From Alphaproteobacteria bacterium (lineage in GTDB: Bacteria > Pseudomonadota > Alphaproteobacteria > DSM-16000 > Inquilinaceae), in contig JAAAOG010000134.1 of assembly GCA_009909005.1 (NCBI GenBank), positions 1-36,418 of the forward strand: 36,418 bases of DNA, given 5' to 3'. The position numbers and the translations under genes are program-made. Shown here one piece after another: positions 1 to 32,384 of the stretch; positions within the stretch are counted from its first letter, which is position 1, and the number at the start of each line of letters is the position of its first letter. The notes below the pieces were generated by a model. That model was given only the letters and a program-made list of their open reading frames with translations. It was not told where the DNA came from and did not search any database.

Positions 1-1229
<1,229 letters not shown>

Positions 1230-2535: not shown

Positions 2536-3999
2536 TCAATCCGGGGTCCAGGGGGTCTCCGGCGCCGGATAGGGGGTGTTGAGGATGCCGATCTGGTTGC
2601 CCATGCGGGTCTGGACCGCCGGGCTGATCATCTCCGCCCCGTTCGTGCCCTGGATCGGCGAGAACAGCAGGATGTTCAGCGACCCGCCGAAGAGGAAGTT
2701 GCCGAACGGCGTGACGCCCTTTGTCACCTCCGCGCCTTCCATGACGTCGTCTGCGAACACCACCGAGCCGACCGTATCCAGCCCGACGGGGATCGAGGCG
2801 ACATAGCCGGTAAGCTCCGCCGGCTCCTCGCCCGGCAGGTTGGCATAGGTCACCCGGATGATGATGACGCCGCGTTGGAAGCCCTGGAACTGACTGAAAT
2901 CCGTGCCCGGCCGGCCGACATTGCCGTCGAGCGGCACCCAGTTCGGCCAGTCGCTATAGCCGAAGGTGCCATAGGCATAGGGGTTGGCGCCGTCGGTCCC
3001 AGCCTCGACGATCTCGGCATATTCGATCACCCCGTCCACCGGGCTGTGGAAATGGTGATAGGTGTTGGGCATCAGCACGCAGGACAGGCCGGTGCCGCCG
3101 GTGAACGCGTCCTTGAGGTCCTGCGGCGCATTGGCCAGCAGGGCCTCGACCGACATCGGGATGCCCTTGACGTCGAGCACCGTGTCCTGTTGCAGCGGGT
3201 TTTCCAGAAGCTGCCGGGTGACCGGTCCGGGGTCCCGCTCCACCACCTGGACCAGCGGGTTCATGATGCAGTCGGTCGGCGAGACGATGACATAGTCGCG
3301 GTCCGGCATGGTGACGGGGCGCGACGGATAGGTCCCGGTCTCCGGATCGAAAATCAGGTTGCGGGCGAAAAAGGCGTTCCAGTTGTCATAGCCTTCCGGA
3401 TCCTGAATGACATAGTCCTCGATCTCGATCCGCGGGTCGGCCACCCATTCCGGCACATAGGTCGTCGACTCCGGACTGTTCATGTAGGCGAGATAGTCGT
3501 CATTGAACAGGATGAGGAAGTTCGCCACCGTCTCCAGCGGCTGGTCGGGATCATTGGGGTCGATGCCGGAGACCAGCCGGACACCGGCCTCGTTGTGATA
3601 ATAAAGCCAGGCGAAGTACTGAATGGAATCGAGCGCGTTGTCGTTGGTGCCGACGATCTGCGGAAGCAGAGTGCAGACTTCGGCATAGAACTCTTGGACG
3701 GCCGCGAACAGACCTTCGCCGCTGCCGGCCGCCGCCCAGGGGTTGTCGGTCGAGCCGTCATAGGCATAGCCGGGCGGCAGCGGCTGCAGGCCGTCATAGA
3801 CCGCGTCGAACGCCGCCCGGGTCCGCGGGTCGTTTTCGTACTCCTCGGCCAGATAGTCGAGCGACGGGGCGCAGGGCGACGCCGCCTCCTCGGCCTGCGC
3901 CTGCGCCGTCCCGGCCGCCGCCATGCCCAGCAGCCAGACACCGCCGGCCAGGGCGGCCAGCCGCCCGGCACGCCGGGCGTTGATGATGTATTCCGTCAT
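2536..3999 (-). CDS. Secreted phosphatidylserine decarboxylase-like protein
   Basis: The 487-residue protein starts at the ATG at 3999, preceded by an AGGGAG ribosome site; upstream in-frame starts lack one. It has an N-terminal signal peptide (basic start, then LAALAGGVWLLGMAAAGTAQA) ending near residue 37. The body shows phosphatidylserine decarboxylase (PF02666) signatures: WNAFFARNL (compare the N-x-FF-x-R-x-L of PSD), the catalytic-histidine segment YHHFHSPVDG near residue 315, and a late FLFGGSLNILLF near residue 435. In this family serine in LGST/GGS is self-cleaved to form the pyruvoyl cofactor. Canonical PSD is inner-membrane bound and about 220-320 residues, so the export signal, extra ~180 N-terminal residues and GGS motif point to a divergent decarboxylase of unknown substrate. 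It stands alone, divergent from the DUF3830 gene. Confidence 0.72.
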   Translation of the reverse strand: MTEYIINARRAGRLAALAGGVWLLGMAAAGTAQAQAEEAASPCAPSLDYLAEEYENDPRTRAAFDAVYDGLQPLPPGYAYDGSTDNPWAAAGSGEGLFAAVQEFYAEVCTLLPQIVGTNDNALDSIQYFAWLYYHNEAGVRLVSGIDPNDPDQPLETVANFLILFNDDYLAYMNSPESTTYVPEWVADPRIEIEDYVIQDPEGYDNWNAFFARNLIFDPETGTYPSRPVTMPDRDYVIVSPTDCIMNPLVQVVERDPGPVTRQLLENPLQQDTVLDVKGIPMSVEALLANAPQDLKDAFTGGTGLSCVLMPNTYHHFHSPVDGVIEYAEIVEAGTDGANPYAYGTFGYSDWPNWVPLDGNVGRPGTDFSQFQGFQRGVIIIRVTYANLPGEEPAELTGYVASIPVGLDTVGSVVFADDVMEGAEVTKGVTPFGNFLFGGSLNILLFSPIQGTNGAEMISPAVQTRMGNQIGILNTPYPAPETPWTPD

Positions 4000-4247
4000 C
4001 TTATTCGCTCCCTGGATGTGTTGAAGCCCCATGATAATAGGCCATGGCGGCCCCGAAACCGGAGCGTATTCTTCCGAGACGGGAGGATTTACGCCGCAAC
4101 ACGCGTTGCTCGCGCCGCCATCGGGATCGAACGCAAAGCGTGTGCGCGCAATTTCCTCGGGCGCCACCGATTTCCGTAGACCGGTCCGCTGCCTGGCTGG
4201 GTTAATGTCACACTATCGTGCTGACGGACACGCGAGGGTGACCCATC

Positions 4248-4661
4248 ATGACCAGGCTGATTGTCGAGGCCGGGCCGTTCGCTTTTGAGGCCCGGTTCGA
4301 GGAGGCGGCGGCGCCGCAGACCTGCGCGGCCTTCAAAAAGGCCATGCCTTTCACCGGGCAGGTGGTGCATGTCCGCTGGAGCGGTGAAGGGGTCTGGATA
4401 CCCCTTGGCGATCGCGATTTCGGCGTGGGCTATGAGAACCACACCAGCTACCCGGCGCCGGGCCAGATCATTCTTTACCCCGGCGGAATCAGCGAGACCG
4501 AGATCCTGCTCGCCTATGGCGGTGTCCACTTCGCATCGAAGATGGGGCAGCTCGCCGGCAACCACTTCATCACCCTGACATCGGGGCTTGAGCATCTGTC
4601 GGCGCTGGGCACCGCGGTCCTTTGGAAAGGCGCGCACGACATCAGATTTGCGTTCGAATGA
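4248..4661 (+). CDS. DUF3830 family protein
   Basis: A 137-residue cytoplasmic protein with clear DUF3830 (cyclophilin-like fold) character: N-terminal TRLIVEAGPFAFEARFEE, central VVHVRWSGEGVWIPLGD, then the family signature segment YENHTSYPAPGQIILYPGG and the tail ISETEILLAYGGVHFASKMG. A GAGGGTGA ribosome site precedes the ATG. DUF3830 genes are repeatedly found beside racemase, hydantoinase and ABC-importer genes in proteobacteria, which matches the downstream cluster. The biochemical role is unknown. It is the first gene of the plus-strand run, but a 549-base gap separates it from the ABC genes, so it may have its own transcript. Confidence 0.85.
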   Translation: MTRLIVEAGPFAFEARFEEAAAPQTCAAFKKAMPFTGQVVHVRWSGEGVWIPLGDRDFGVGYENHTSYPAPGQIILYPGGISETEILLAYGGVHFASKMGQLAGNHFITLTSGLEHLSALGTAVLWKGAHDIRFAFE

Positions 4662-5210
4662 CCGCCCCGCCCTCCGGCCGGACCGCCGGCGAGGCGGGCA
4701 AGGGACCACCCCCGGGTCGTCTCCATAGACGAGCGGGTGTCAGAGACTCAGGGGTAGAGTTTCTCGATCCGAAAATCCTAATAAATCGCATACACTCATG
4801 CGCATGCCTTGATCCGGCGGCTCTCGGGACTTGCAATAGCCAGAGCTGTGATCTCGGTCTTTGTCGCGGCGGTCTTTGATCGATCAGAAGGGCGCTGACG
4901 CAGCATTCGGGTCCGCGGCAGGAGGGACTTGGTATCTCGCCCAGATTCTCACCGTGTTGCTTTCGACGTGAGCCTTCCTGCCCCGAACTGCCCAGAAAGG
5001 CGGCAAACAAGGCCGGCGCCGCCCTCTCCGGATCACCGGCAAAGACGCACTCCTGCTCATTGATCACCCACCGAAGACGGCTGCGGCGGCTGGCATAGCG
5101 TTTGCTGAAACGGGGCTGTGGCCGCGGAAGGCAGGCGGCCCGCTACCAGTCCTGACTCCGGGTCGCAGGACCCACAGCCGGGACCGCAGCGAGTCTATCG
5201 GGGAGTGGCC
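4662..5210. other. Intergenic stretch without a convincing gene
   Basis: This 549-base gap separates the DUF3830 gene from the ABC importer. It carries a short AT-richer patch near 4770-4800 (CCTAATAAATCGCATACACT) that could contain a promoter. A small GGGTC-loop-GACCC hairpin lies at 5160-5173, just before the ATP-binding gene. A 141-codon open frame on the minus strand (4642-5067) has no recognisable domain, no ribosome site and unusual composition, so I do not call it. No RNA gene was recognised. Confidence 0.5.
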
Positions 5211-6404
5211 ATGCCGGCCTCGCAAGATCTTCCGGCCGTCGATGTCGAGCTGATCAAGGCGACCAAGCGCTATGGCAGCACCTTGGCCGTGGACTGCGTC
5301 GACCTCAAGATCCCGGCCGGCACCTATTGCTGCCTCCTCGGCCCGTCCGGCTGCGGCAAGTCCTCCTTGCTGCGGATGATGGCGGGCCATGAGGGCGTGA
5401 CCGACGGCGACCTGCTGATCGGCGACACCTATTCCAACGACCTGCCGCCGGCCGGTCGCCGCACCGCCATGATGTTCCAGCATTACGCCCTCTTCCCGCA
5501 CCTGAACTGCCTGGACAATGTCGCGTTCAGCCTGCGGATGAAGGGGGTGCCCAAGGCCGCGCGCCATGCGAAGGCGCGCGCGCTGCTCCGGCTTGTGCAC
5601 ATGGAGGATTACGAAAAGCGGCTCCCGGCGCAGCTGTCCGGTGGGCAGCAGCAGCGCATCGCTCTGGCGCGGGCGCTGATCACCGATCCCGGCGTCCTGC
5701 TGCTGGATGAGCCGCTCTCGGCCCTCGACCCGTTCCTGCGGGTCCGGATGCGGGCGGAACTCAAGCGCCTGCAGACCGAACTTGGCATCACCTTCATTCA
5801 CGTCACGCACAGTCAGGACGAGGCGATGGCCCTGGCCGACCTCGTCGTCGTGATGGACAGGGGCCGCATCGAGCAGGTCGGCACGCCGCGGGACGTCTTC
5901 AACCAGCCGGCCACGGCGTTCGTCGCGCGTTTCATCGGCGGGCACAATGTGCTGTCGGGAGAGGTGGTGTCGGCGACGTCCGGCCATGCGCTGGTCGCGC
6001 TGGCGGATGGCCACCGGATCGGCCTGCCCGCATGCGGCGCTTCGCCGGGGGACAGTCTTGCCTTCACCGTGCGCGCCGACCGGCTTTCGCTGTCGCCGGC
6101 CGCCGCCGTCAAGCCGGTGGCGCCGTCGCCGGATGCCGGGCCCGACGGCCATGGCGAGATCACCGGCCGCGTTTCCTCTATCCAGTATCAGGGCACCCAT
6201 GTCGAGGTGCGGCTGGCCTTGCCGGAGCAGGCCGAGCTTCTCCTCGCGACGGTGCCGGAGCGAACCTTTTTCGACGCGCCGCTACAGGAAGGCGACCGCG
6301 TCACCGCGCGCTGGAACGCGCGCGACGTCCATGCCCTGCCCGAAGCGGGTCGGCCGCAAGCGGCAGAGGAGCAAGTAGAACCGCGACAACAGGAGGCAGT
6401 CTAG
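5211..6404 (+). CDS. ABC importer ATP-binding subunit (PotA type)
   Basis: This 397-residue subunit powers a polyamine/opine-type (PotABCD class) importer at the inner membrane. Visible motifs in order: Walker A GPSGCGKSS (~44-52), Q-loop MMFQHYALFPH, signature LSGGQQQRIALARAL (~142-156), Walker B VLLLDEPLSALD (~163-173), and switch histidine in VTHSQDEAMAL (~198). A TOBE-like regulatory region fills roughly residues 290-380. ATG 5211 follows GGGGAG; an in-frame upstream extension has no ribosome site. The stop is two bases from the next start, so it is the first gene of a tight operon with the binding protein and two permeases. The neighbouring ureide and carbamoyl hydrolases suggest an allantoin, hydantoin or similar nitrogen compound as substrate (inference). 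Confidence 0.93.
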   Translation: MPASQDLPAVDVELIKATKRYGSTLAVDCVDLKIPAGTYCCLLGPSGCGKSSLLRMMAGHEGVTDGDLLIGDTYSNDLPPAGRRTAMMFQHYALFPHLNCLDNVAFSLRMKGVPKAARHAKARALLRLVHMEDYEKRLPAQLSGGQQQRIALARALITDPGVLLLDEPLSALDPFLRVRMRAELKRLQTELGITFIHVTHSQDEAMALADLVVVMDRGRIEQVGTPRDVFNQPATAFVARFIGGHNVLSGEVVSATSGHALVALADGHRIGLPACGASPGDSLAFTVRADRLSLSPAAAVKPVAPSPDAGPDGHGEITGRVSSIQYQGTHVEVRLALPEQAELLLATVPERTFFDAPLQEGDRVTARWNARDVHALPEAGRPQAAEEQVEPRQQEAV

Positions 6405-6406
6405 CC

Positions 6407-7699
6407 ATGTCCTATAGGAAGCGCAGCCCATTCTCGACCGTCTACACCCGTCGGGACTTTGTGAAAACGACGGCCCTGGCGGGGACTGCCGCTGCCGTGT
6501 CCAGCTTTCCCGCGCCGTTCGTTCATGCCCAGGAGGCGGTCACGCTCCGGATTGCCGGCACCGGCGTGAATGCCTTCAACGAGCTGGCGGAACGCGCGCT
6601 GGAAGAACTGGGCATAAATATCGAATACATCGTCCTGACCTCCGACGATGTCGTCACGCGGGCGATTACCCAGCCGACATCGTTCGACATGATCGACAGC
6701 GAATACTGGATGCTGGCCAAGATCGTCCCGTCGGGGAACCTGAAGGGGATGGATGTCTCCCGCATCCAGTATTACGACGACATTGTGCCGATCTTCACCC
6801 GGGGCGAGCTGCCGGACGGCACCCAGATGGCCCGGCAGGGCACGGCGCCGATCAAGGTCAGCTATCTGACGGCCGAAGAGTCCTCGACCTTCGCCGAGGA
6901 GCCGACCAATTTCATGACCCTGATCCCGACGGTCTACAATGCCGACACGCTCGGGATCCGGCCGGACCTGATCAACCGCCCGATCGAGAGCTGGGCCGAG
7001 CTGCTGAACCCGGAATTCGCCGGCAAGACCGCGATCCTCGACATCCCGTCGATCGGCATCATGGACGCCGCCATGGTCTGCGAGTCGCTGGGCGAGATCC
7101 AGTATGGCGACAAGGGCAACATGACCCGTGACGAGATCGACCGGACCATGGCCATCCTCACCCAGGCCAAGCGCGACGGTCAGTTCCGGGCGTTCTGGAA
7201 GGAGTTCAACGAGAGCGTGACGCTGATGGCCTCCGGCGAGGTGGTGATCCAGTCCATGTGGTCGCCGGCCGTGACGGCGGTCCGCCAGCAGGGCGTGCCC
7301 TGTGTCTACCAGCCATTGCGGGAAGGCTATCGCGCCTGGGCCTCCGGTCTCGGCATTCCGTCGCATCTGAGCGGCCGTCAGCTCGACGCCGCTTATGAGT
7401 TCATCAACTGGTACCTGTCCGGCTGGGTCGGCGCCTTCCTCAACCGTCAGGGCTATTACACCGCGGTCCTGTCGACCGCCCGCGAGAACATGACCGAGAA
7501 TGAGTGGAACTTCTGGATGGAGGGCGAGCCTGCGGCGGAACCGATCGTCAGCCCGACCGGCACGGTGATCGAGGAGCCGGGCGCGGTGCGCGACGGCGGG
7601 TCCTTCTGGGAGCGGATGGGCGCGGTCGCCTGCTGGAACTCGGTGATGGACGAGGATCGCTACATGGTCCGCAAGTGGAACGAGTTCATCGCGGCATAA
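6407..7699 (+). CDS. ABC importer substrate-binding protein (PotD type, Tat signal)
   Basis: This 430-residue periplasmic binding protein captures the ligand for the importer encoded around it. The N-terminus carries a twin-arginine signal, TRRDFVK at residues 14-20, then a hydrophobic stretch and probable cleavage after VHA near residue 41. The mature part has features of extracellular solute-binding proteins of the spermidine/putrescine class: FDMIDSEYWML early, a hinge around IPTVYNADTLG, and a C-terminal AYEFINWYLSG. AGGAGG lies 10 bases before the ATG, and the upstream stop is two bases away. Tat export implies folding before transport, common for solute-binding proteins in this lineage. 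The ligand cannot be read from sequence. Confidence 0.92.
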   Translation: MSYRKRSPFSTVYTRRDFVKTTALAGTAAAVSSFPAPFVHAQEAVTLRIAGTGVNAFNELAERALEELGINIEYIVLTSDDVVTRAITQPTSFDMIDSEYWMLAKIVPSGNLKGMDVSRIQYYDDIVPIFTRGELPDGTQMARQGTAPIKVSYLTAEESSTFAEEPTNFMTLIPTVYNADTLGIRPDLINRPIESWAELLNPEFAGKTAILDIPSIGIMDAAMVCESLGEIQYGDKGNMTRDEIDRTMAILTQAKRDGQFRAFWKEFNESVTLMASGEVVIQSMWSPAVTAVRQQGVPCVYQPLREGYRAWASGLGIPSHLSGRQLDAAYEFINWYLSGWVGAFLNRQGYYTAVLSTARENMTENEWNFWMEGEPAAEPIVSPTGTVIEEPGAVRDGGSFWERMGAVACWNSVMDEDRYMVRKWNEFIAA

Positions 7700-7726
7700 C
7701 CTCGGCGCTTGCCCCAAGGGGGCTTT

Positions 7727-7784
7727 GTCATGCCCGCGAAAGCGGGCATCCAGGAAAATGGATCCCCGCTTGCGCGGGGATGAC
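7727..7784. repeat. Palindromic repeat, copy 1 of 3
   Basis: A GTCAT...ATGAC-bounded element made of two hairpins: TGCCCGCGAAAGCGGGCA followed by ATCCCCGCTTGCGCGGGGAT. It lies in the 139-base gap between binding-protein and permease genes. Copies 2 and 3 are at 11325-11395 and 15684-15754. In mRNA it would fold into stable stem-loops that could reduce downstream expression or protect the abundant binding-protein message (inference). Confidence 0.85.
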
Positions 7785-7838
7785 AAAAAAGTGCAATCCC
7801 TCGATCCACTGACGTGATTCCAGCCTCGGCCATCGCCC

Positions 7839-8711
7839 ATGACCGCCCTTCGCCAGACTGCCGTGACCAAGGCCGTGCCGCTCCTCCAGGCGCTGCCGCT
7901 GGCTGCCATATTGATTGCCTTCTTTGTGGGGCCGGTGTTGCTGGTCGTCGCGGTCAGTTTCTTCGATTACCAAACCTGGGACATTCTGATCCCCGATTTC
8001 ATCCTCTACAATTATGAGATCCTGCTCGGCAGCGAAACGACGTACCGGACCTATTTGAATACGGCCAAGCTTTGTTTGCTTGCCTGGTTCTTTACTTTGA
8101 CGATCGGTTTCACCATCGCCTATTTCCTTGCCTTTCACGTCCGCTCGGTGCCGCTGCAGATCGGGCTGTTCCTCCTGTGCACGATCCCGTTCTGGACCTC
8201 CAACATCATCCGGACGATCAGCTGGATCCCGCTTCTGGGCCGCGAGGGGCTGGTCAATCAGGGGCTGATGGGCGTCGGGATCGTCTCGGAGCCGGTGGAG
8301 TGGCTGCTCTATTCCGAATTCGCCGTCATCCTCGGCTATGTGCACCTGTACACGCTGTTCATGATCGTGCCGATCTTCAACTCGATGCTGCGGATCGACC
8401 GCGCGGTGATCGAGGCGGCGCGCGATGCCGGCGCCAGCGGCTTCCAGATCCTGCGCCACATCCTGCTGCCCCTGAGCAAGCCGGGCATGGCGATCGGCAC
8501 GATCTTCGTCGTGGCGCTGGTGATGGGCGATTTCTTCACCGTCGACGTCCTGGGCGGCGCCAAGGTCGCCTCGGTCGGCAAGACCATCGTCAATGAGCTC
8601 GGCTATCTGCAATACCCCCCGGCCGCCGCCAATGCGGTGGTGCTGACCATTGTCACCATTCTGCTGATCGTCGCGCTGATGCGCATCGTCAACATCCGCA
8701 AGGAGCTGTGA
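7839..8711 (+). CDS. ABC importer permease (PotB type)
   Basis: A 290-residue inner-membrane permease of the PotB class. It shows about six hydrophobic segments, beginning at LLQALPLAAILIAFFVGPVLL. The cytoplasmic EAA coupling loop EAARDAGASGFQILRHILLP lies at about residues 191-210 and contacts the ATPase. The conserved DxFxxxVLGG-like segment (GDFFTVDVLGGAKVAS) follows. The gene comes after a palindromic repeat that interrupts the operon, and its stop is six bases before the second permease. It should form the heterodimeric pore with that partner. Confidence 0.93.
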   Translation: MTALRQTAVTKAVPLLQALPLAAILIAFFVGPVLLVVAVSFFDYQTWDILIPDFILYNYEILLGSETTYRTYLNTAKLCLLAWFFTLTIGFTIAYFLAFHVRSVPLQIGLFLLCTIPFWTSNIIRTISWIPLLGREGLVNQGLMGVGIVSEPVEWLLYSEFAVILGYVHLYTLFMIVPIFNSMLRIDRAVIEAARDAGASGFQILRHILLPLSKPGMAIGTIFVVALVMGDFFTVDVLGGAKVASVGKTIVNELGYLQYPPAAANAVVLTIVTILLIVALMRIVNIRKEL

Positions 8712-8717
8712 TCGGAG

Positions 8718-9557
8718 ATGGGGGAGCAGCGCGGACCGACCTTCTACATCCTCGCGGCCTTTTTCGGGATGTTCGTCATCTTCCTGTACGGCCCGATCAT
8801 CACCATCGTGATCCTGTCGTTCCAGGGGCCGCAGGGGAACCTGGTCTTCCCGATGAACGGCTTTTCGCTGCACTGGTTTCGCGAGCTGTTCACGGATCAG
8901 CCGATCGGCGACATCCACGGCGCCTTCGGCCGCTCGATCCGCCTGGCGCTCATGGTCATGGTGCTGACGGTGCTGGTGTCGGTGCTGGCGGGGCTGGCCT
9001 ATCGGCGGCGGTTCATCGGCGCCACGGCCCTGTTCTACACCGCGGTGGCCAGCCTGATCATGCCGTCGATCGTGATCAGCATCGGCATCGGCGCCGGGTA
9101 CGAGCTGCTGGGCTGGACGCGCACCTGGTACGGCTCCACCCTGGGCGCGCATCTGACCTGGACGCTGCCCTTCGGCCTGCTGATCATGTTCGCGGTGTTC
9201 AACCGGTTCAGCCCCGCCTATGAGGAGGCCGCGCGCGACCAGGGGGCCACGGGCTGGCAGACCATCCGCCATGTCGTGCTGCCGATCATCGCCCCCAGCC
9301 TGATCGGGGTGGCGCTGTTCGGCTTCACCCTCAGCTTCGACGAGCTGGCCCGCAGCAGCCAGGTGACCGGCGATCTGAACACCATGCCGAAAGAGCTGCA
9401 GGCGCTGCAGACCAACACGGTGACGCCGGTCATCTACGCGCTGGGCACGCTGACCACGCTGATCTCCATGGCGGTGATCGCCACCTGCGTCAGCACCGTG
9501 CTGATCATGCGGGCGCGCCGCCGCCGCCATGGCTCCGACGCCGGCCAGGGAGTGTGA
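8718..9557 (+). CDS. ABC importer permease (PotC type)
   Basis: A 279-residue PotC-class permease, partner of the preceding gene. The N-terminal membrane segment (FYILAAFFGMFVIFLYGPII) with following serine/phenylalanine-rich periplasmic loop is typical, and the EAA loop EEAARDQGATGWQTIRHVVL sits at about residues 168-187. The C-terminal helix ends in a basic tail (MRARRRRHG). Its stop lies four bases before the racemase ATG, which ties transport and catabolic genes into one transcription unit. Confidence 0.93.
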   Translation: MGEQRGPTFYILAAFFGMFVIFLYGPIITIVILSFQGPQGNLVFPMNGFSLHWFRELFTDQPIGDIHGAFGRSIRLALMVMVLTVLVSVLAGLAYRRRFIGATALFYTAVASLIMPSIVISIGIGAGYELLGWTRTWYGSTLGAHLTWTLPFGLLIMFAVFNRFSPAYEEAARDQGATGWQTIRHVVLPIIAPSLIGVALFGFTLSFDELARSSQVTGDLNTMPKELQALQTNTVTPVIYALGTLTTLISMAVIATCVSTVLIMRARRRRHGSDAGQGV

Positions 9558-9561
9558 GGGC

Positions 9562-10323
9562 ATGAAGCTGCTGATCGTCAATCCCAACACCACCGCCGGC
9601 ATGACCGACAAGATTGGCGATGCCGCACGCTCCGTTGCCGCGCCCGGCACCGACATCCTGGCCGTCAACCCGGACAGCGGCCCGGTCAGTATCGAAGGCC
9701 ATTATGACGAGGCGTATTGCGTCCCCGGCCTGTTGGAGGAAATGGCCAGGGGCAAGGCTGCCGGGGTGGATGCCGCCATCGTCGCCTGCTTCGACGATCC
9801 GGGCCTGGGCGCCTGCCGCGAGCTGATGGACGTCCCGGTCCTCGGCATCTGCGAGGCGGCCATGTATGCCGCCGCCATGACCGCCGGCTCCTTTTCGGTG
9901 GTGACGACGCTGAAGCGTGCCACCCCGATCATCGGGGCCCTGGCGCTCCGCTATGGCATGGAGCGGCATTGCCGCAGCATCCGCGCCGCCGAGGTGCCGG
10001 TGCTGGCGTTGGAAGAGCCGGGCAGCGATGCGGCCGACAAGGTGAAGGCCGAGGTCAGGCGGGCGCTGGAGGAAGACGGTGCCGAGGCCGTGCTTCTGGG
10101 GTGCGCCGGCATGGCCGATCTGGCCCGCCGCTTTACCGAGGAGGTCGGGGCGCCGGTGATCGACGGGGTGGCCGCGGCGGTCAAGCTGGCCGAGGGGCTG
10201 GTCGGCCTCGGGCTGAAGACCAGCAAGGCCGGCAGTTTCGCCGCGCCGCGGGCGAAGCCCTATGCGGGCCGCTATGCCGCCATGGCTCCGGGTGCGCCTG
10301 CCGCGGCGCGCGCAGCCGAATAG
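9562..10323 (+). CDS. Asp/Glu/hydantoin racemase family protein
   Basis: This 253-residue cytoplasmic protein belongs to the cofactor-independent Asp/Glu racemase superfamily, closest in appearance to hydantoin racemase (HyuE) and allantoin racemase (HpxA). The start reads MKLLIVNPNTTAGMTD. The two catalytic cysteines are visible at C76 (IVACFDDPG) and C181 (LLGCAGM). Such enzymes interconvert enantiomers of 5-substituted hydantoins or of allantoin so that stereospecific hydrolases can use both. The following PuuE gene makes an allantoin substrate plausible, while the two carbamoylases downstream also fit hydantoins; sequence alone does not decide. I use ATG 9562 rather than an in-frame ATG 11 codons upstream, which would overlap the permease gene. 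Confidence 0.88.
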   Translation: MKLLIVNPNTTAGMTDKIGDAARSVAAPGTDILAVNPDSGPVSIEGHYDEAYCVPGLLEEMARGKAAGVDAAIVACFDDPGLGACRELMDVPVLGICEAAMYAAAMTAGSFSVVTTLKRATPIIGALALRYGMERHCRSIRAAEVPVLALEEPGSDAADKVKAEVRRALEEDGAEAVLLGCAGMADLARRFTEEVGAPVIDGVAAAVKLAEGLVGLGLKTSKAGSFAAPRAKPYAGRYAAMAPGAPAAARAAE

Positions 10324-10334
10324 GGGGTGTGGCC

Positions 10335-11297
10335 ATGACCGTGCCTCTCGGCCCCTACCCCCGCGACATGATCGGCTATGGCCGCACACCGCCGGACCCG
10401 CGCTGGCCCGCGAGCGCGCGGGTCGCGGTGCAGTTCGTGATCAATTACGAGGAGGGCGGGGAGAACACCATTCTGCATGGCGACCCGGCCTCGGAGGCCT
10501 TTCTGTCCGAGATCATCGGCGCGGCCCCGCTGCCCGGCCAGCGCAACCTGAACATGGAATCGATCTACGAATATGGCAGCCGCGCCGGCTTCTGGCGCCT
10601 CCACCGCCTGTTCGCCTCGCGGCAGGTGCCGGTCACCGTCTACGCCGTCGGCATGGCGCTCGCCCGCAACCCGGAGGCCGGCGCCGCCATGGCCGAGGCG
10701 GGCTGGGAGGTGGCGAGCCATGGCTGGCGCTGGATCGACTATCAGGACGTGCCCGAGGCTGTTGAGCGCGACCATATCCGCCTGTCGGTCGAGGCGATCG
10801 CGGCGGCGACGGGCGAGACGCCGGTCGGCTGGTACACCGGCCGGATCAGCCCCAACACGCGGCGGCTGGTCGTCGCGCATGGCGGCTTTCTCTATGACTC
10901 GGACAGCTATGCCGACGATCTGCCCTACTGGGACCACAGCCATGGCCGGCCGCACCTGATCATCCCCTACACGCTCGACACCAACGACATGCGCTTCGCC
11001 ATGGCCCAGGGCTTCAACACCGGCGAGCAGTTCTTCGCCTATCTCCGCGATGCCTTCGACGCCCTCTATGCGGAGGGGGCGGAGGCGCCGAAGATGCTCA
11101 GCATCGGGCTGCATTGCCGGTTGGTGGGGCGGCCCGGGCGGATCGTCGGGCTGGCCCGCTTCCTCGACCATGTGCTCTCGCATGACCGGGTCTGGGTCTG
11201 CCGCCGGGCCGACATCGCCCGGCACTGGCACGCCACCCATCCGCCCGCTGCGCCGCTACCCGATCACAAAGGTGACTGCGATGTCTATTCGGGTTGA
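10335..11297 (+). CDS. puuE: PuuE-type allantoinase (polysaccharide deacetylase family)
   Basis: The 320-residue protein closely follows the cofactor-independent allantoinase PuuE, which opens allantoin to allantoate. Landmarks in order: YPRDMIGYGRTPPDP, VQFVINYEEGGENTILHGD, NLNMESIYEYGSRAGFWRL (~72-90), ASHGWRWIDY (~133-142), GWYTGRISPNTRRL (~171-184), IPYTLDTNDMRF and LSIGLHCRLVGRPGR near the C-terminus. It belongs to the NodB/polysaccharide deacetylase fold. The gene lies 11 bases after the racemase. Uricase, transthyretin-like and OHCU-decarboxylase genes that often accompany puuE are absent here, so either allantoin is imported or the enzyme opens another ureide ring. Confidence 0.88.
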   Translation: MTVPLGPYPRDMIGYGRTPPDPRWPASARVAVQFVINYEEGGENTILHGDPASEAFLSEIIGAAPLPGQRNLNMESIYEYGSRAGFWRLHRLFASRQVPVTVYAVGMALARNPEAGAAMAEAGWEVASHGWRWIDYQDVPEAVERDHIRLSVEAIAAATGETPVGWYTGRISPNTRRLVVAHGGFLYDSDSYADDLPYWDHSHGRPHLIIPYTLDTNDMRFAMAQGFNTGEQFFAYLRDAFDALYAEGAEAPKMLSIGLHCRLVGRPGRIVGLARFLDHVLSHDRVWVCRRADIARHWHATHPPAAPLPDHKGDCDVYSG

Positions 11298-11324
11298 TGA
11301 ACCATCGCCATGAGTACTTCGTCG

Positions 11325-11395
11325 GTCACCCCCGCGGAAGCGGGGGTCCAGAAAGTCAACGGAGAGAACTGGATTCCCGCTTTCGCGGGAATGAC
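11325..11395. repeat. Palindromic repeat, copy 2 of 3
   Basis: Same design as copies 1 and 3: GTCA-bounded, with an ACCCCCGCGGAAGCGGGGGT hairpin, a short spacer and an ATTCCCGCTTTCGCGGGAAT hairpin ending in ATGACAGG. It fills most of the gap between puuE and the acetyltransferase gene. Confidence 0.85.
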
Positions 11396-11481
11396 AGGAA
11401 AGGATTGAGTGGTCCGACCATGACTCAAGACCCGTCCAGTCGGATCTCTGCCAGCCTGAGCGGGCCGGGCGGAGAGGCGCT

Positions 11482-12360
11482 ATGACCGTGAACGAGGCGC
11501 CGGGCGGGTTCACCGTCCGCCCGATGACGGCGGCGGAGGTCGCGCTGGCCGTCGACTGGGCCGCGGCCGAAGGCTGGAACCCGGGCCATCACGATGCCGC
11601 GCTGTTCCATGCCGTCGATCCGGACGGCTTCCTCATCGGGCTTGCCGACGGGCAGCCGGCCGCCGTGATCTCCGTCGTCAACTACACCGCCGACTTTGCC
11701 TTTCTGGGCTTGTACATCGCCCATCCGGAGACGCGCGGCCGCGGCTTCGGCTGGCGCACCTGGCAGGCCGGGATTGCCGATGCCGGCGACCGCCTGATCG
11801 GCCTGGACGGCGTCGTCGCCGAGCAGGACAGCTACCGCAAATCCGGGTTCCGGCTGGCCTATCGCAATATCCGCTACAGCGGCGCCGTCGCCGTGCCGGA
11901 TGCCGGGCCGCGGGCCGGGACGCCGGCCGGGACGCTGGTTCCCTTGACCGGGGTGCCGATCGACGCGATCGCTTCGCTTGACGCCGCGGTGTTTCCCGTG
12001 GCGCGCCCGGCATTCCTCGACGCCTGGGTGTCCGCACCGGGCCATATCGGCCTGGGCCTGGAGCGGGACGGCGCACTTGCGGGCTTCGGCGTGCTGCGAC
12101 CGTGTCGGACAGGGTACAAGCTCGCCCCCCTGATCGCGCCTGACGAGCCGGCGGCGGAGGCGCTTTTCCTCGGTCTTGCAAGCGCGGCCGGCGGGGCGCC
12201 GCTGGCGATGGACGTGCCGGAGCCCAACCCGGCCGCCATCGCCCTTGTCACGCGCCATGGTTTGCAGCCGGTGTTCGAGACCGCGCGCATGTACACCGGC
12301 CCGGTCCCGGCTCTGGCGCTGGACCGCCTGTTCGGCGTCATGTCATTCGAGCTGGGGTGA
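11482..12360 (+). CDS. GNAT-family N-acetyltransferase, two-domain
   Basis: A 292-residue cytoplasmic acetyltransferase. The N-terminal GNAT domain (about 10-140) carries the acetyl-CoA pyrophosphate loop TRGRGFGWRTW (residues 84-94), preceded by strand FAFLGLYIAHP. The C-terminal half (about 155-290) resembles the YitH/HolE-type domain: DAAVFPVARPAFLDAW, then GYKLAPLIAPDEPAAEAL and PNPAAIALVTRHGL, ending with a conserved-type ETARMYTGP segment. The acceptor is not predictable. Its place among ureide and carbamoyl-amino-acid genes suggests it acetylates an amine or amino acid product, or detoxifies an analogue. An ATG follows a GGAGAGG ribosome site. Confidence 0.87.
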   Translation: MTVNEAPGGFTVRPMTAAEVALAVDWAAAEGWNPGHHDAALFHAVDPDGFLIGLADGQPAAVISVVNYTADFAFLGLYIAHPETRGRGFGWRTWQAGIADAGDRLIGLDGVVAEQDSYRKSGFRLAYRNIRYSGAVAVPDAGPRAGTPAGTLVPLTGVPIDAIASLDAAVFPVARPAFLDAWVSAPGHIGLGLERDGALAGFGVLRPCRTGYKLAPLIAPDEPAAEALFLGLASAAGGAPLAMDVPEPNPAAIALVTRHGLQPVFETARMYTGPVPALALDRLFGVMSFELG

Positions 12361-12395
12361 GGGGAGTTGAGCATGCACTCGAGCAACGGAGCTGA

Positions 12396-12491
12396 ATTCA
12401 AACCGCCCGCGCTGCCTTCGGCGTCGTGATCGACAACGGCCGGGTGGACGAGACCGCAACCGCCGCCCTGCGCGCCGCCCGCAACGTGTGA
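12396..12491 (+). pseudogene. Probable C-terminal remnant of hydantoinase B (hyuB-like)
   Basis: An open segment without a start codon ends at TGA 12489-12491 and translates as ...ARAAFGVVIDNGRVDETATA followed by ALRAARNV. The pattern (aromatic)-GVVI-x-x-G-x-VD-x-x-AT-x-x-LRA is, as I recall it, the C-terminal tail of hydantoinase B/oxoprolinase subunits. The frame is closed upstream by TGA at 12393, and nothing else of a HyuB gene is found nearby, so the rest appears deleted. An 18-codon frame from ATG 12373 overlaps it and is not credible. The assignment depends on about 30 residues, so it is tentative. Confidence 0.45.
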
Positions 12492-12518
12492 AACACGAGA
12501 AAGACCGAGCCACCAACC

Positions 12519-13787
12519 ATGCACAATCTGCGTATCGATGCCGAGCGGCTGTGGGACAGCCTGATGGAGACCGCCAGGATCGGCGCGACAGCCAAGGGCG
12601 GCATCCGCCGGCTGACCCTGAGCGAAGAGGACAAGGCGGTTCGCGACTGGTTCAAGGCGGCGTGCGAGGCGATCGGCTGCACCGTCAGCTGGGACGACAT
12701 GGGCAACATGTATGCCGTCTATCCCGGCAAGCATCCCGACCGGTTGCCGATCGCCATGGGCTCGCATCTCGACACCCAGCCGACCGGCGGCAAGTTCGAC
12801 GGCGTGCTCGGCGTCCTCGCCGGGCTGGAGGTGCTGCGCACGCTGCACGATGCCGGCTACGAACCAGACACCCCGCTGATGCTGGTCAACTGGACGAACG
12901 AGGAGGGCGCGCGCTACCAGCCGAGCATGATGGGCTCCGCCGTCTATGCCGGCGCGCTGACCCGGGAGCGATGCTACGACCAGACCGACGGCGACGGCGT
13001 GCGCTTCGAGGACGCGCTGGAGGCCATCGGCTACAAGGGCGAGACGCCGGCGGGCCCTGAGACGGGGGCGCCCGGCTTTGCCGGCATGTTCGAGCTGCAT
13101 ATCGAGCAGGGCCCGATCCTGGAAGCCGAGGACAGGACCATCGGTGTCGTGACCGGCATTCAGGGCATGCGCTGGTACAAGGTGTTTCTGACCGGCAAGG
13201 AGAACCATGCCGGCACCACGCCCATGCATCTGCGCCAGGACGCCATGGTCGGCGCGGCCAGGCTGACCCTGGCGGTCAACGAGATCGCCCGATCCTATGA
13301 GGGCCGCGCGGTCGGCACCGTCGGGCGCATCGAGATCCGCCCGGGGTCGCCCAATGTCGTGCCGGGCGACGTGTTCTTCACCGTCGATTTCCGCTCGCCC
13401 GATGCCGCCATCCTCGACGCGATGGAGGCCGGGTTCCGCGAGGTGGCCGATGCCGTCACGGCGGAGCACGGTCTGGGCATCGACGTCCAGAAGGTGAGCG
13501 ACAGCCCGCCGGTGACCTTCGACGGTGCCGCGATCGACGCGGTGCGGGCCTCTGCCGACTCGCTCGGCTACAGCCATCGCGAGATGCTGAGCGGCGCCGG
13601 CCATGATGCCGGCTATGCCGCCTATGTCGCGCCGACCGCGATGATCTTCGTGCCGTGCAAGGACGGCCTCAGCCATAACGAGCTGGAGGACGCCACGGCC
13701 GCGCACTGCGCCGCCGGCGCCAATGTGCTGCTGCAGGCGGTGCTGGCGCGTGCCAATGCCGCCGATGCGGCCCCCGACACGCGATAG
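12519..13787 (+). CDS. M20 Zn-dependent N-carbamoyl-amino-acid / allantoate amidohydrolase
   Basis: This 422-residue M20-family metallohydrolase belongs to the L-carbamoylase, beta-ureidopropionase and allantoate amidohydrolase branch. Metal and catalytic signatures: GSHLDTQPTGGKFDG (H83, D94), NWTNEEGARYQPSM (E128/E129), FELHIEQGPILE (~196-208), the dimerisation-domain GKENHAGTTPM, and the late histidine segment GAGHDAGYAAYVAPTAMIF. It would release CO2 and ammonia from an N-carbamoyl group. Next to puuE it could act on allantoate; next to the racemase it could be an L-carbamoylase. The substrate residue set cannot be resolved by eye. It starts at ATG 12519, just after the putative hyuB remnant. 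Confidence 0.9.
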   Translation: MHNLRIDAERLWDSLMETARIGATAKGGIRRLTLSEEDKAVRDWFKAACEAIGCTVSWDDMGNMYAVYPGKHPDRLPIAMGSHLDTQPTGGKFDGVLGVLAGLEVLRTLHDAGYEPDTPLMLVNWTNEEGARYQPSMMGSAVYAGALTRERCYDQTDGDGVRFEDALEAIGYKGETPAGPETGAPGFAGMFELHIEQGPILEAEDRTIGVVTGIQGMRWYKVFLTGKENHAGTTPMHLRQDAMVGAARLTLAVNEIARSYEGRAVGTVGRIEIRPGSPNVVPGDVFFTVDFRSPDAAILDAMEAGFREVADAVTAEHGLGIDVQKVSDSPPVTFDGAAIDAVRASADSLGYSHREMLSGAGHDAGYAAYVAPTAMIFVPCKDGLSHNELEDATAAHCAAGANVLLQAVLARANAADAAPDTR

Positions 13788-13800
13788 GGTGGACCCGTAG

Positions 13801-14355
13801 GTGGCAGAGAGAAACGGGGGTCCGCGGTTGCAGCGCCTGGGGCTGGTCGCCGGGAGCGCCAGCCGGCACCTCAACCGCTGGGTCGAGTATGCCTGTGCGG
13901 CCCTGGCGGTGGTGCTCGTGCTGACGGTCTGGCTGGGCGTGTTCGTGCGCTATGTCTGGCCGCTCCCGATCACCTTCACCGAAGAGGCGGCACGCTATCT
14001 GATGATCTGGATGGCGCTGCTGGCGGTCTCCTGCGGGGTCGCGCGGCGCGAGCATATCGGCGTGACGCTGCTGTTCGACCGTCTGCCGCAGCGCCTGCGG
14101 CGCCCGGGCGTGGTGACGCTTGACCTCGTCGTCATCGGCTTTTTCGCGGTCATCCTGTGGTTCGGCATCGGCTTTGCCGAGAAGGGCCAGACGCGCCTCA
14201 CCATGATCTACGGCGCATCGAAATTCCTGCCCTATCTGGCGGTGCCGGTGGCCGCGGCTCTGGCCATGGTGCAGGGCCTGCTGGTGCTCGTCCGCGACGC
14301 CACGGCACCCGAGCCGCCCTCCGACCTCGCCGAGAGCCATCTGGAGCTGCGCTGA
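13801..14355 (+). CDS. TRAP transporter small permease (DctQ type)
   Basis: A 184-residue protein with four membrane segments, the small subunit of a tripartite ATP-independent periplasmic transporter. Segments are visible at about residues 24-43 (YACAALAVVLVLTVWLGVFV), 60-80 (YLMIWMALLAVSCGVARREH, with the family's R-R/K-x-E-H-I), 105-125 and 150-170. The start is GTG at 13801, 13 bases after the hydrolase stop. Its TGA overlaps the large-permease ATG by one base (TGATG), indicating translational coupling. Confidence 0.9.
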   Translation: MAERNGGPRLQRLGLVAGSASRHLNRWVEYACAALAVVLVLTVWLGVFVRYVWPLPITFTEEAARYLMIWMALLAVSCGVARREHIGVTLLFDRLPQRLRRPGVVTLDLVVIGFFAVILWFGIGFAEKGQTRLTMIYGASKFLPYLAVPVAAALAMVQGLLVLVRDATAPEPPSDLAESHLELR

Positions 14356-15632
14356 TGCTGGCCGTCGGGCTGTCCTTCTTTCTGCTGCTCGTCACCAGCC
14401 TGCCGGTGGCCTATGTGCTGGGCATCGCCGGGCTGATCGGGCTGGCCGGCATCGGCCCGCGCTATCTGGCCATGGCGCCGGACCGGCTGTTCGGCGGACT
14501 GGACCTGTTCCCCTTCCTGGCCATGCCGTTCTTCATCCTTGCGGGCGAGATCATGAACCGCACCGGCATCACCGAGCGGCTGATCGAATTCGCCCGGGCG
14601 CTGGTCGGCTTCCTGCGCGGCGGGCTCGCCCATACCAACATGGTGGCGAGCGTCTTCTTCGCCGGCATCACCGGCGCGGCCACCGCCGATGCCGCCGCCT
14701 TCGGCAACACCATGGTGCCGGCGATGGTGCGCCAGGGCTATAGCCGGCCCTTCGCCTGCGCGGTCACGGCCGCCGGCTCGATCATCGGGCCGACCATCCC
14801 GCCCTCGACGTTGATGGTGATCTACGGCTCGATCATGGGCGTGTCGATCGCCGGGCTGTTCGCCGCGGGCATCCTGCCGGGGCTCCTGATCTGTATCGCC
14901 TGCATGCTGGTGATCGCCTTGCTGGGCGCCCGGCTCGGCCTGCCGAAGAGCGAGGCCGGCTTCCAGACGGCTCTGGTCCTCCGTTCCTTCCGGCGCAGTC
15001 TGCCGGCGCTGGTGCTGCCGGTGTTCATCCTGGGCGCCATTCTGGGCGGCGTGACCACGCCGACGGAGGCGGCGTCGATCGCGGTGCTCTATGCGCTGGT
15101 GGTCGGCGGCCTGCTCTATCGCCGGCTGACCTGGCGCGACCTGCTGGAGATGCTGGTGCGCACCGCCCGGATCACCGGCATCATCTTCTTCATCATCGCG
15201 ACCGCCTCGATCCTCGGCTGGTGGATGACCTTCAACCAGGTGCCGCAGGCGATCGCCGAAGGGTTCCTGGCCGTATCGAACGAGCCCGGGATCATCATTG
15301 CGATGGTCCTGCTGCTGCTCCTTCTGATCGGCATGTTCATGGACATCAACGCCGCGCTGATCATCCTGGCGCCGGTCCTGGCGCCGCTGACCGTGGCGAT
15401 CGGGCTCGATCCGGTTCATGCCGGCGTGATGATCATTCTGGCGCTCAACATTTCGCTGATGACGCCGCCGGTCGGCGCCTGCCTGTTCGTTCTGGCCTCG
15501 GTCACCGGCGAACGGGTCGAGCGCATCGCCGGCGCGCTCATTCCCTTTCTTGCGGTGGAGGTTCTGATCCTGATCGCCATCGCCTATTGGCCGGACCTCA
15601 CCCTGACCATCCCGAGACTGCTCGGGCTGTAG
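14355..15632 (+). CDS. TRAP transporter large permease (DctM type)
   Basis: A 425-residue inner-membrane protein with about 12 hydrophobic segments, the ion-coupled transport subunit of the TRAP system. Family landmarks: LDLFPFLAMPFFILAGEIMN near residue 55, GITGAATADAAAFGNTMVPA near 105, GSIIGPTIPPSTLMVIYGS near 140, and late GMFMDINAALIILAPVLAP with ISLMTPPVGACLFV. Na+- or H+-driven uptake is family knowledge. It is coupled to dctQ by a one-base overlap, while the binding protein follows after an intervening palindromic repeat. Confidence 0.94.
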   Translation: MLAVGLSFFLLLVTSLPVAYVLGIAGLIGLAGIGPRYLAMAPDRLFGGLDLFPFLAMPFFILAGEIMNRTGITERLIEFARALVGFLRGGLAHTNMVASVFFAGITGAATADAAAFGNTMVPAMVRQGYSRPFACAVTAAGSIIGPTIPPSTLMVIYGSIMGVSIAGLFAAGILPGLLICIACMLVIALLGARLGLPKSEAGFQTALVLRSFRRSLPALVLPVFILGAILGGVTTPTEAASIAVLYALVVGGLLYRRLTWRDLLEMLVRTARITGIIFFIIATASILGWWMTFNQVPQAIAEGFLAVSNEPGIIIAMVLLLLLLIGMFMDINAALIILAPVLAPLTVAIGLDPVHAGVMIILALNISLMTPPVGACLFVLASVTGERVERIAGALIPFLAVEVLILIAIAYWPDLTLTIPRLLGL

Positions 15633-24212: not shown

Positions 24213-27200
24213 TCAAAGCTGCCGGCCGCCGTCGCCGACCAGGGTGAAGCCTGCCCAATTATAGGGATGAGCGGTCGCCGGGTCGTCGATCAGACGCAGC
24301 TGGCTCTGCCTCAGAGCTTCCGCCGTGCTGCGCCCGCCGGCCACGCCCTCGCGGAAAAGCCCGGCCAGAAGGGTAGCCGTCGGCCGGTCGGGCACATGCC
24401 AGTGCGAGGCGAGCAGTGATCGCGCGCCGGCATAAAAGAAAGCGCGGGCCAGTCCGGTCAGGCTCTCGCCGCCGGTATTCGCCCCGGCCCCGGCGGTATT
24501 GCAGGCCGAGAGGACGACGAGGTCGGCATCGAGTTCGAGGTCGAGGATCTCGGCGGCATCGAGGATACCGTCCTCCGCCGGCTGCGCGTCGGCCGGCCGG
24601 GAGACGACCAGCCCCGGTTCCGACCAGCAGTCCAGCTCGCCGGGCAGCAGGCCGTGGGTGGCGAAGTGCACCACCCGGAACTCGGCCAATCGCTGCTCGC
24701 GGACCGTGCGTTCGGTAAAGGCCGCGCCCAGGATCAGATCGCCGGCGCCGGCGTCCAGCGCGGAGGCGGCCGCCCGCAATTCCGCCGCGGTGGCCGGCAG
24801 GGGGGTGGCATTGGCCACGGCGGCGGCATCGTCCCGGCAGGTCTCGGGCAGCGCGCGTGCCGCCAGGATCGCCGCGGTGTCGCCGGCGGGCTGGAAATCC
24901 CCAAAGCCGATAAAGGGGCGTGAGGCTTGCGAGGGGGTCGCAACGTCGCGGATATGGACGAAGGCGCGCACCGAAGGCGCCAGCGTCAGGGCGTGGCGGC
25001 GGAGCAGCCAGGCCGCGTCTTCATAGCCCGCTTCGCGGGGCGGCTCGGTCAGCAGCATGCCGAAAGGCAGGCTGAGCAGCGGCTCGGAGGGCACGATCAC
25101 CACGTGCCGGGCCGCAGCCATCCGGCCATCGATCTCGGCGAAGAGCAGCCGGTAGAGGGCGTGCGCCAGTGGCAGGTTGAAGGCCTCGCGGCCGGCGCCC
25201 TCGTCGACCGGCCGCCGCAGGCCGCGGACGATCTGCAGGGCCAGGGCCCGGTTCAGGGCGATCAGCCGGGCCTCCAGGCCCTCCGGCGCCACCAGCACCA
25301 CCAGGGTGCGATCGCCCCCGACCAGGATTTGCACCAGCGCCTCGTCGGGCTGCAGCTGGGCCTGCACGGTCCCGGCATCAATCGGCAGGTCGACCAGCTG
25401 GTTGTAGCGCGGCGAGACCGACTGCACCTGAAGCTCCAGCGCGGCGATGCGCGCCCCGGCCGCCTCCAGCTCGCGGTCCAGCTGTCGCAGCTGCTCGGGC
25501 AGGACATTGGGCTGCGCCTGCAGGTGCAGCAGCGTCGTGTTGAGCGTGTCGCGCTCCATGCGGGCATCCTGCAGGGCCCGGATCAGTCCGCTGATCTCCT
25601 GTTCGCCATCGGCCAGGCGGGCGGCGGCGAGCCCGATGGTCTGCGCGGTGAGGCTGCCGCGGATGGTCTGGCTGACCGCGAACAGCTCCTGCAGCAGGGC
25701 ATCCGCCCGGCCGGGCTGCTGCGCCACAGTCGCGAGCACCGCCTCGAAATAGGGCAGGGCCTGCTCGAAGCTGAGCCCGCCGCCCTGCGCTTCGATGATG
25801 GCAAAGCCGGCGCGGAAGGCGTTGAAGGCGTCGGCGGCCTCACCCTGCTGCCAGAGCAGCTTGCCGAGCAGCAGCCAGGCCAGCCCCTCGGTGCGCGACT
25901 GCGCATACAGGCCCGCCTGCGCCTCGATACTGCGGCGCACCAGGTCGATTGCCTCGGCGGGCCGGCCGGCGGCCTCGGCGAAACGGGCCTGCTGGAGATA
26001 GAGCTCCGGCTGCCAGTGCGGCGGCAGATCCGGATCGCGCCGGGCAATGCGCTCCGCCCGGGCCAGGCTGGCCCCGGCCCCCTCCCGATCGCCGAGGACG
26101 AATTGCATGATTGCCTCGGTATAGAGGCTGCGGACGGCATCGCCGATCGCCGCCGGGCCGGCGGCGGGGTGCGGCGACTGGCCGGCGCCTTCGCCCGCCA
26201 GGTCGAGCCGTTGCCGGGTGGCCGCGCGGGCCAGCTCCAGGGCATGCTCCGGCTGACCCTGATTGGCCGCATGGATGGCCAGGTAACTGTCGAACCGCGG
26301 CCGCTCGGCAGGATCGAGGGAGGCGCCGAGCAGGCTGCCGGCCTGCTCGAACAGCGGGCCGGCCTCGGCGAAACGGCCCTGATTGCTGAGTTGCAGGGCG
26401 ATGTGCATCAGGACGAAGGCGCGGCCGGCGGCGCCGTCCGGCACCAGGCGCCGGTGCAGCCGGAGCGCGTCCCGATAGGCCCGCTCTGATGAGGCGAAGT
26501 CCTTCGTATAGTTGTGGTACTGCGCCAGGCGCAGGAGGCGGCTGTAATCCTGAAGGTCGCCGGTACTGAAGAGAGTCCCGCCCAGCTCCGCCTCGACCTG
26601 GCGGATGGCGGCGGAATAATCCTGCGGGGTGCCGGCTTCGGCGGCCGGGCGCGTCCGTCCCGCGGCGATGCCGATGGCCGCCTCGAGCGCCGGCAGGGCC
26701 GCCGGGATGCCGTCGCCGAGCAGCAAGGCCCCGTCGCTTGCGGCCGCCACCGCGACATAGGGCCAGCCGCCCTCGCGGAAGGCGCATTCGGCGAAGAGGT
26801 GGGCCGGCAGGCTGTCGAGGATCTCGGATGGCGTGCCCTCGGCGCAGACCACCCGGTGGTCCAGCGCCGCGCGCCACCAGCCGGCGCGAGCCGCGGCCGC
26901 GGGGTCGCCCGTTACCGCGCTGCCCGTCCCGGCAGGCGCGCGGTAGACGGTGCCGCTGGGCTCCTCCCAGTCGCCGCAGCGTATCGCGTAGGCCGCGGTG
27001 CCGGCCGGGGCGCCGTCGGGGATGGGGGCAGGCTGCATCCGGCAGGCCTCGCCGATCAGATTGTCGCCGACGCCAATCGTGCGGACCGGGGCATTCGCAT
27101 CTTCGCCCGGAGCGATCGTGCAGCCCCCCGGGAGCGAAAGGCAGGCCAGGGCGGCAAGGACCAGCCTCCATCGCCATGACCGCTGCCGGCCCCGTCGGGT

Positions 27201-30553: not shown

Positions 30554-30580
30554 GTCGGCACCCTCCTCTCTGGTCCGGCG

Positions 30581-32308: not shown

Positions 32309-32384
32309 CGGGTCAGGCCTTGTGAGGGTCCGGGCCGCTTGATCAGGAGACGGCCCGGACCTCGGCGGGAAGAAGGCGACCGGC

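Follow-up and report, generated by a model that had tools for sequence, protein, structure and literature searches.

A predicted exported, pyruvoyl-decarboxylase-like protein of the phosphatidylserine decarboxylase family with a PsiD-like modelled fold

The window analysed here is a whole stretch of 36,418 nucleotides from contig JAAAOG010000134.1 of an alphaproteobacterium of the Inquilinaceae. Its reverse strand carries a gene of the phosphatidylserine decarboxylase (PSD) family with the following features.

2536..3999, minus strand: PSD-family (PF02666) pyruvoyl-decarboxylase-like gene, predicted exported, 487 aa (ORF call, Pfam, alignment)
3892..3999, minus strand: residues 1-36, a predicted Sec signal peptide that is probably cut after AQA36 (our own hydrophobicity rule)
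3334..3882, minus strand: N-terminal helical domain, residues 40-222, like those of PsiD and the Aspergillus oryzae arginine decarboxylase, with Cys43 and Cys109 (structure comparison, hhalign)
2587..3327, minus strand: PF02666 PSD domain, residues 225-471 (Pfam E 6.7e-18)
3265..3279, minus strand: PTDCI segment, residues 241-245, with Asp243 (equivalent of E. coli PSD Asp90) and Cys244 (invariant 34/34; profile alignment)
3031..3072, minus strand: MPNTYHHFHSPVDG segment, residues 310-323, with His315 and His318 (equivalents of E. coli His144 and His147; histidines invariant 34/34)
2680..2688, minus strand: GGS motif, residues 438-440, predicted autocleavage before Ser440 (invariant 34/34)

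The gene starts with the ATG at 3999, preceded by a ribosome-site-like stretch, AGGGAG, 8 nt upstream. We regard a long antisense ORF (2875-4179, plus strand) that overlaps it as a shadow ORF. A palindromic repeat lies close to the downstream end of the gene, where 2263-2441 holds two direct copies of 56 nt and one inverted arm of it. On the other side, divergently oriented neighbours encode a DUF3830 protein and an ABC transporter. The subunits of this transporter come closest to polyamine (PotA-D) or 2-aminoethylphosphonate systems, without any of them reaching an equivalog cut-off. These genes belong to a longer stretch (4248-15632) that also encodes an Asp/Glu racemase, a PuuE allantoinase domain, an allantoate amidohydrolase and a TRAP transporter, and whose gene content suggests the use of ureides or amino acids. 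Farther away, 24213-36233 encodes a CHAT-domain protein and, next to it, a TPS-domain protein and a transporter of the ShlB/FhaC type, followed by proteins with cadherin-like repeats; this is probably a cluster for two-partner secretion that has a caspase-like protein at its side.

A link between an amine-making enzyme and an amine importer was considered as a clue to the substrate. Across 37 loci (the window and 36 others; ORFs of at least 90 aa clustered, a family being counted if present in at least three loci), clustering found no conserved neighbour; besides the enzyme itself it returned only the enzyme's shadow ORFs and small sets, namely generic regulators, ABC ATPases and one three-member set. 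Because no neighbour family is shared, the link to the importer is not relied on.

The 36 loci came from a scan of contigs from 84,980 species genomes with short patterns taken from the window protein. They lie in Pseudomonadota, Acidobacteriota, SAR324, Nitrospinota and Thermodesulfobacteriota, many of the contigs being metagenome bins, so that some of these placements may be binning errors; isolates with the gene include Thalassobaculum fulvum, Caenispirillum salinarum and Tistlia consotensis. Among 385 genomes drawn from the same class, five have relatives, the window's own genome counted. The family alignment holds 34 rows, the window protein and proteins from 33 of the 36 loci, L049, L054 and L055 being left out for partial or broken frames; it also omits the copies in L014, L015 and L017, whose scores are identical to those of L030, L046 and L048, and the copy in L016. 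Start codons were picked by eye as the first ATG (GTG in L048) before the hydrophobic segment. Identity to the window protein ranges from 42 to 75%, and with the frame, the motifs and the N-terminal signal kept in the 33 homologues over that range, sequence conservation indicates that the gene is not a chance reading frame.

In a tree of 49 rows, the window family and a cytosolic paralogue share one branch (100/99), and the canonical PSDs (100/100), the PsiD-like proteins and type B lie outside it; six of the 14 canonical PSDs requested for this tree passed the motif filter. The paralogue falls beside L053, the most divergent member (94/89), with long branches flagged there. It is a cytosolic-looking protein encoded at L033:6324-7442, directly upstream of an exported-type copy, in a Nitrosomonas MAG. 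Type B, as we name it (L018, L019, L073), is a second PSD-like family with signal-like N-termini, and L073 stands in tandem with the window family's homologue in L040. The phage collection searched gave no match to the window family. A plasmid search gave 12 distant matches, the best being in Embleya, where the homologous region has no signal-like start as judged by eye; this PSD-like gene (L116:6344-8158) is overlapped, then followed, by an ORF (L116:7102-9615) whose product, from a motif, presumably resembles a serine carboxypeptidase.

Signal calls were made by a rule of our own, combining charge, the Kyte-Doolittle (KD) mean of an 11-mer and A-X-A sites, and not by a trained predictor. By this rule the signal peptide proposed in the preliminary description is borne out: the n-region has a net charge of +2, an uncharged hydrophobic 11-mer begins at residue 14 with a mean KD of 2.10, and A-X-A sites past the hydrophobic segment end at residues 29, 34 and 36, which suggests a cleavable signal and gives no clear sign of a stop-transfer anchor. 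An uncharged N-terminal hydrophobic 11-mer with a mean KD of at least 1.95 is found in all 34 aligned members. The signal-less PSD-family controls (L010, L077, L078 and the L033 neighbour) have a KD of at most 0.9 or no uncharged 11-mer, and two canonical PSDs gave 1.62 and 0.34. The type B proteins L018, L019 and L073, at 2.57-3.15, look exported as well. A strict A-X-A site occurs within the scanned region in 17 of the 34 members, and in some members the N-terminus may be an uncleaved anchor; L035 has a lipobox-like Cys. The signal-like character of the window protein's N-terminus is a property of its sequence, and from it we infer export.

The same description's claim of a divergent PSD domain with an intact catalytic His segment and a GGS motif also holds. 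PF02666, the only domain found in the Pfam search of the window protein, scores 65.5 bits against a gathering score of 22. The curated PSD equivalog models of NCBIfam stay far below their cut-offs (PRK00723, 48.8 against 371 bits; TIGR00163, 38.7 against 111.75), and the Pfam and NCBIfam models used do not resolve the family. The catalytic His segment reads PNTYHHFHSPVDG and the cleavage motif FGGS440. Profile alignment pairs Asp90, Asp142, His144, His147 and Ser254 of E. coli PSD with D243, T313, H315, H318 and S440, and D243, H315, H316, H318 and GGS440 are invariant in 34 of 34 members, together with Cys43, Cys109, Cys244 and Cys307. For the E. coli enzyme, PMC7952604 attributes autocleavage to Asp90/Asp142-His144-Ser254 and recognition of the carboxylate to His144. 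Given the equivalent Asp, His and Ser residues, self-cleavage and Schiff-base decarboxylation by the window protein are likely. Two of the invariant cysteines are missing from two relatives that have no signal-like start: the paralogue in the Nitrosomonas MAG has no equivalents of Cys43 and Cys109 and keeps only Cys307 of the four, and the Embleya relative, judged by eye, keeps Cys244 and Cys307, has neither Cys43 nor Cys109, and carries Tyr at the Cys109 position. This pattern fits a Cys43-Cys109 disulfide that would form only after export.

About 180 residues (about 37-222) separate the signal from the PSD domain. AlphaFold2 with the family alignment modelled the window protein at a pLDDT of 80.2, and residues 40-222 alone at 95.2. 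With the whole model, Foldseek ranked PsiD first (E 8e-11), followed by the A. oryzae arginine decarboxylase and E. coli PSD, and VIA-align gave the same order, with Z 26.2 for PsiD (rmsd 3.1 over 316 residues, model 39..438), 23.7 for the arginine decarboxylase and 15.2 for E. coli PSD over 134..438. The N-terminal domain alone reached Z 7.8 with PsiD (146 of 183 residues), just below the caution level of 8, 7.0 with the arginine decarboxylase and 5.0 with E. coli PSD over 61 residues, the next unrelated chain scoring 3.5; Foldseek with this domain alone found nothing significant, its best match being to E. coli PSD at E 2.0. By hhalign, the window family aligns with type B over residues 37-456 (E 3.7e-33) and with a bacterial PsiD-like set within the PSD domain only. 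PF12588 (PSDC), by which Pfam represents the N-terminal domain of the PsiD type, matches the bacterial PsiD-like proteins L010 and L078 and, weakly, type B L073 (18.1 bits), and none of the 34 family members at E<=10. The N-terminal residues are present as first described; their supposed novelty is not upheld, since structure comparison of the model indicates that they are most likely a divergent PsiD-type domain. Because PF12588 is unmatched in the 34 members, we file the window family as a divergent relative and not as a PsiD-type member. The suggestion of an exported PSD-like enzyme that may act on amino acids, as the PSD-related tryptophan decarboxylases do, is the best supported, the mature protein as a whole matching PsiD better than E. 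coli PSD in the model.

We therefore propose, with somewhat more belief than doubt, that the window gene encodes an exported, self-activating pyruvoyl decarboxylase for a free amino acid or another small amine; the PsiD-like fold is that of the model, and from it we infer the amino-acid substrate. The precursor would be exported by Sec and would fold once it is in the periplasm, where Cys43 and Cys109 would probably pair in a disulfide. Cleavage at the Gly439-Ser440 bond by the Asp243/His315/Ser440 set would then yield a C-terminal fragment that bears a pyruvoyl group. A small substrate, most probably a free amino acid, would be bound to this group through its amino group as a Schiff base, His315 would aid recognition of the carboxylate, and CO2 and an amine would be released. 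Since a serine of the protein itself would supply the cofactor, PLP need not be exported along with the enzyme.

Is the protein instead the PSD of its cell? The gene is the sole PF02666 match in its own genome (G000), a situation that the preliminary description had counted against its proposal if the signal were also an anchor; the A-X-A sites described above point away from the latter. The separate canonical psd that was looked for was not found there, and PS synthase was not detected either: neither type II (TIGR00473) nor type I (NF006946) PssA appears over cut-off, and of the three CDP-alcohol transferases of G000 one is PgsA and the other two reach the cut-off of no PssA model. Among 17 genomes of the bacterial family to which the window genome belongs, 11 have a PF02666 match and six have none, the 11 comprising eight high-scoring canonical-type matches, PsiD-like ones in G008 and G009, and the window gene. 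TIGR00473 exceeded its cut-off in seven of 18 genomes tested, the same seven that have a canonical psd, and scored at most 34 bits in the other 11.

Across the 34 genomes of the window protein family, a pssA match at E<=1e-12 was found in 26 (20 of them over cut-off) and not in eight (G000, G397, G399, G403, G407, G408, G415 and G422), and an E. coli-type PssA was over cut-off in none. A canonical-type PSD, taken as a frame of at most 333 codons or the 390-codon frame of G413 at 202 bits, occurs in 24 of the 26 pssA-positive genomes, being absent from G416 and G427. No short canonical psd was found in any of the eight pssA-less genomes, and in seven of these the window-type gene is the only PF02666 match, G397 having two further long ones. 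The pssA and psd genes are adjacent in relatives and the G000 assembly is 96% complete, so that a single assembly gap could hide both; the double absence recurs in seven other genomes of the protein family, the isolate Tistlia included. The eight pssA-less genomes, and likewise G008, G010, G012, G014 and G015, yielded no PssA over cut-off and no canonical psd, and the ones of known kinship belong to the bacterial family of the window genome. Judging from gene content, such genomes may make no phosphatidylserine and possibly no PE from it. PF13444, which we take to be the OlsB-type domain used for ornithine lipids, is present in 13 of 13 genomes tested. Since no PssA was detected in G000, its sole PF02666 gene need not be the cell's PSD, and the window protein probably is not.

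These data weigh on both sides of the alternative that the protein is an exported PS decarboxylase supplying PE, with PS drawn from the outer leaflet of the inner membrane, from the outer membrane or by scavenging. A PF02666 domain with the complete PSD catalytic set, the pssA matches in most genomes of the protein family and the fact that the most similar named models, though below cut-off, are PSD models would all fit such an enzyme, whereas the genomes without PssA, the window's among them, the lack of E. coli-type PssA and an N-terminal part that is PsiD-like rather than made of canonical PSD membrane helices do not. PMC7952604 names Tyr137 of E. coli PSD as a phosphate contact. The corresponding position is an invariant Val (V308) in the window family, a weak point against PS, since short canonical PSDs from the genomes searched have Phe there, and we dropped this position as a discriminator of PS binding. 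Overall we consider an exported PS decarboxylase unlikely.

Slightly less probable still is a decarboxylase for an envelope-specific or unusual substrate, such as a lipid that carries an amino acid but is not PS, an osmolyte or the terminus of a peptide, rather than a free proteinogenic amino acid. The signal peptide, the want of conserved metabolic neighbours, the occurrence in several PS-less genomes and the Val at the Tyr137 position are compatible with such a role; the closest solved relatives by fold, according to their PDB entry titles, act on free amino acids. A non-enzymatic, structural secreted protein retaining the PSD fold seems very improbable, for although M23/LytM and EIIA folds are weakly similar to the same beta core (Z about 6-9), a likeness we set aside as one of shared beta cores, catalytic and cleavage residues kept in every member down to 42% identity would be unexpected in a dead enzyme. 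We would be just as surprised by a cytoplasmic or membrane-anchored enzyme with a mere anchor at its N-terminus, which the gene's status as sole PF02666 match and the 17 members without a strict A-X-A site might suggest, since the window protein has A-X-A sites after its hydrophobic segment and invariant cysteines, and its positive N-terminus before that segment would, by the positive-inside rule, put the rest of the protein on the outer side even without cleavage.

The decarboxylation of amino acids is usually regarded as a reaction of the cytoplasm that is based on PLP; a cofactor derived from the protein itself would allow the proposed exported pyruvoyl decarboxylase to be active after export. 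We speculate, holding the idea evenly in the balance, that the family represents a widespread and so far uncharacterised class of exported pyruvoyl decarboxylases, which would leave the cytoplasm by Sec, activate themselves outside and make periplasmic amines from amino acids, also in bacteria without PS. The family also carries a warning for annotation: PF02666 alone would confer the label "phosphatidylserine decarboxylase" in seemingly PS-less genomes and mislead the reconstruction of lipid pathways.

How does the window protein compare with known systems? A secreted PSD exists in Toxoplasma, and a literature search, largely confined to papers available without subscription, did not turn up any paper on a bacterial decarboxylase of the PSD family that is exported. 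E. coli PSD (PDB 7cnw, 6l06) shares PF02666 and the equivalents of Asp90, His144, His147 and Ser254 with the window protein, and is described in PMC7952604 as a monotopic membrane enzyme with N-terminal amphipathic helices; the window family differs in lying far below the PSD equivalog cut-offs and in having a signal peptide and, ahead of the PSD domain, an additional domain. Type B proteins share the full-length profile match and the signal-like N-terminus, yet they form a different clade in the tree and at least one member (L077) has no signal. PsiD, the L-tryptophan decarboxylase (PDB 8x4q, 8zia), combines an N-terminal helical domain with a PSD domain, as the window protein does, and by analogy the two would share the pyruvoyl chemistry of the PSD family; PMC12603985 places PsiD in the PLP-independent PSD family and reports it as monomeric. 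In contrast to PsiD, to which it is about 19% identical, the window protein is bacterial and has a signal peptide, four invariant cysteines and no PF12588 match. The arginine decarboxylase of the fungus A. oryzae (PDB 9jer, 9jf5) is the best sequence match in the PDB (E 9.8e-12 with the family profile) and has the same domain layout, with Asn at the His147 position where the window family has His, and the window protein adds to this layout a signal peptide.
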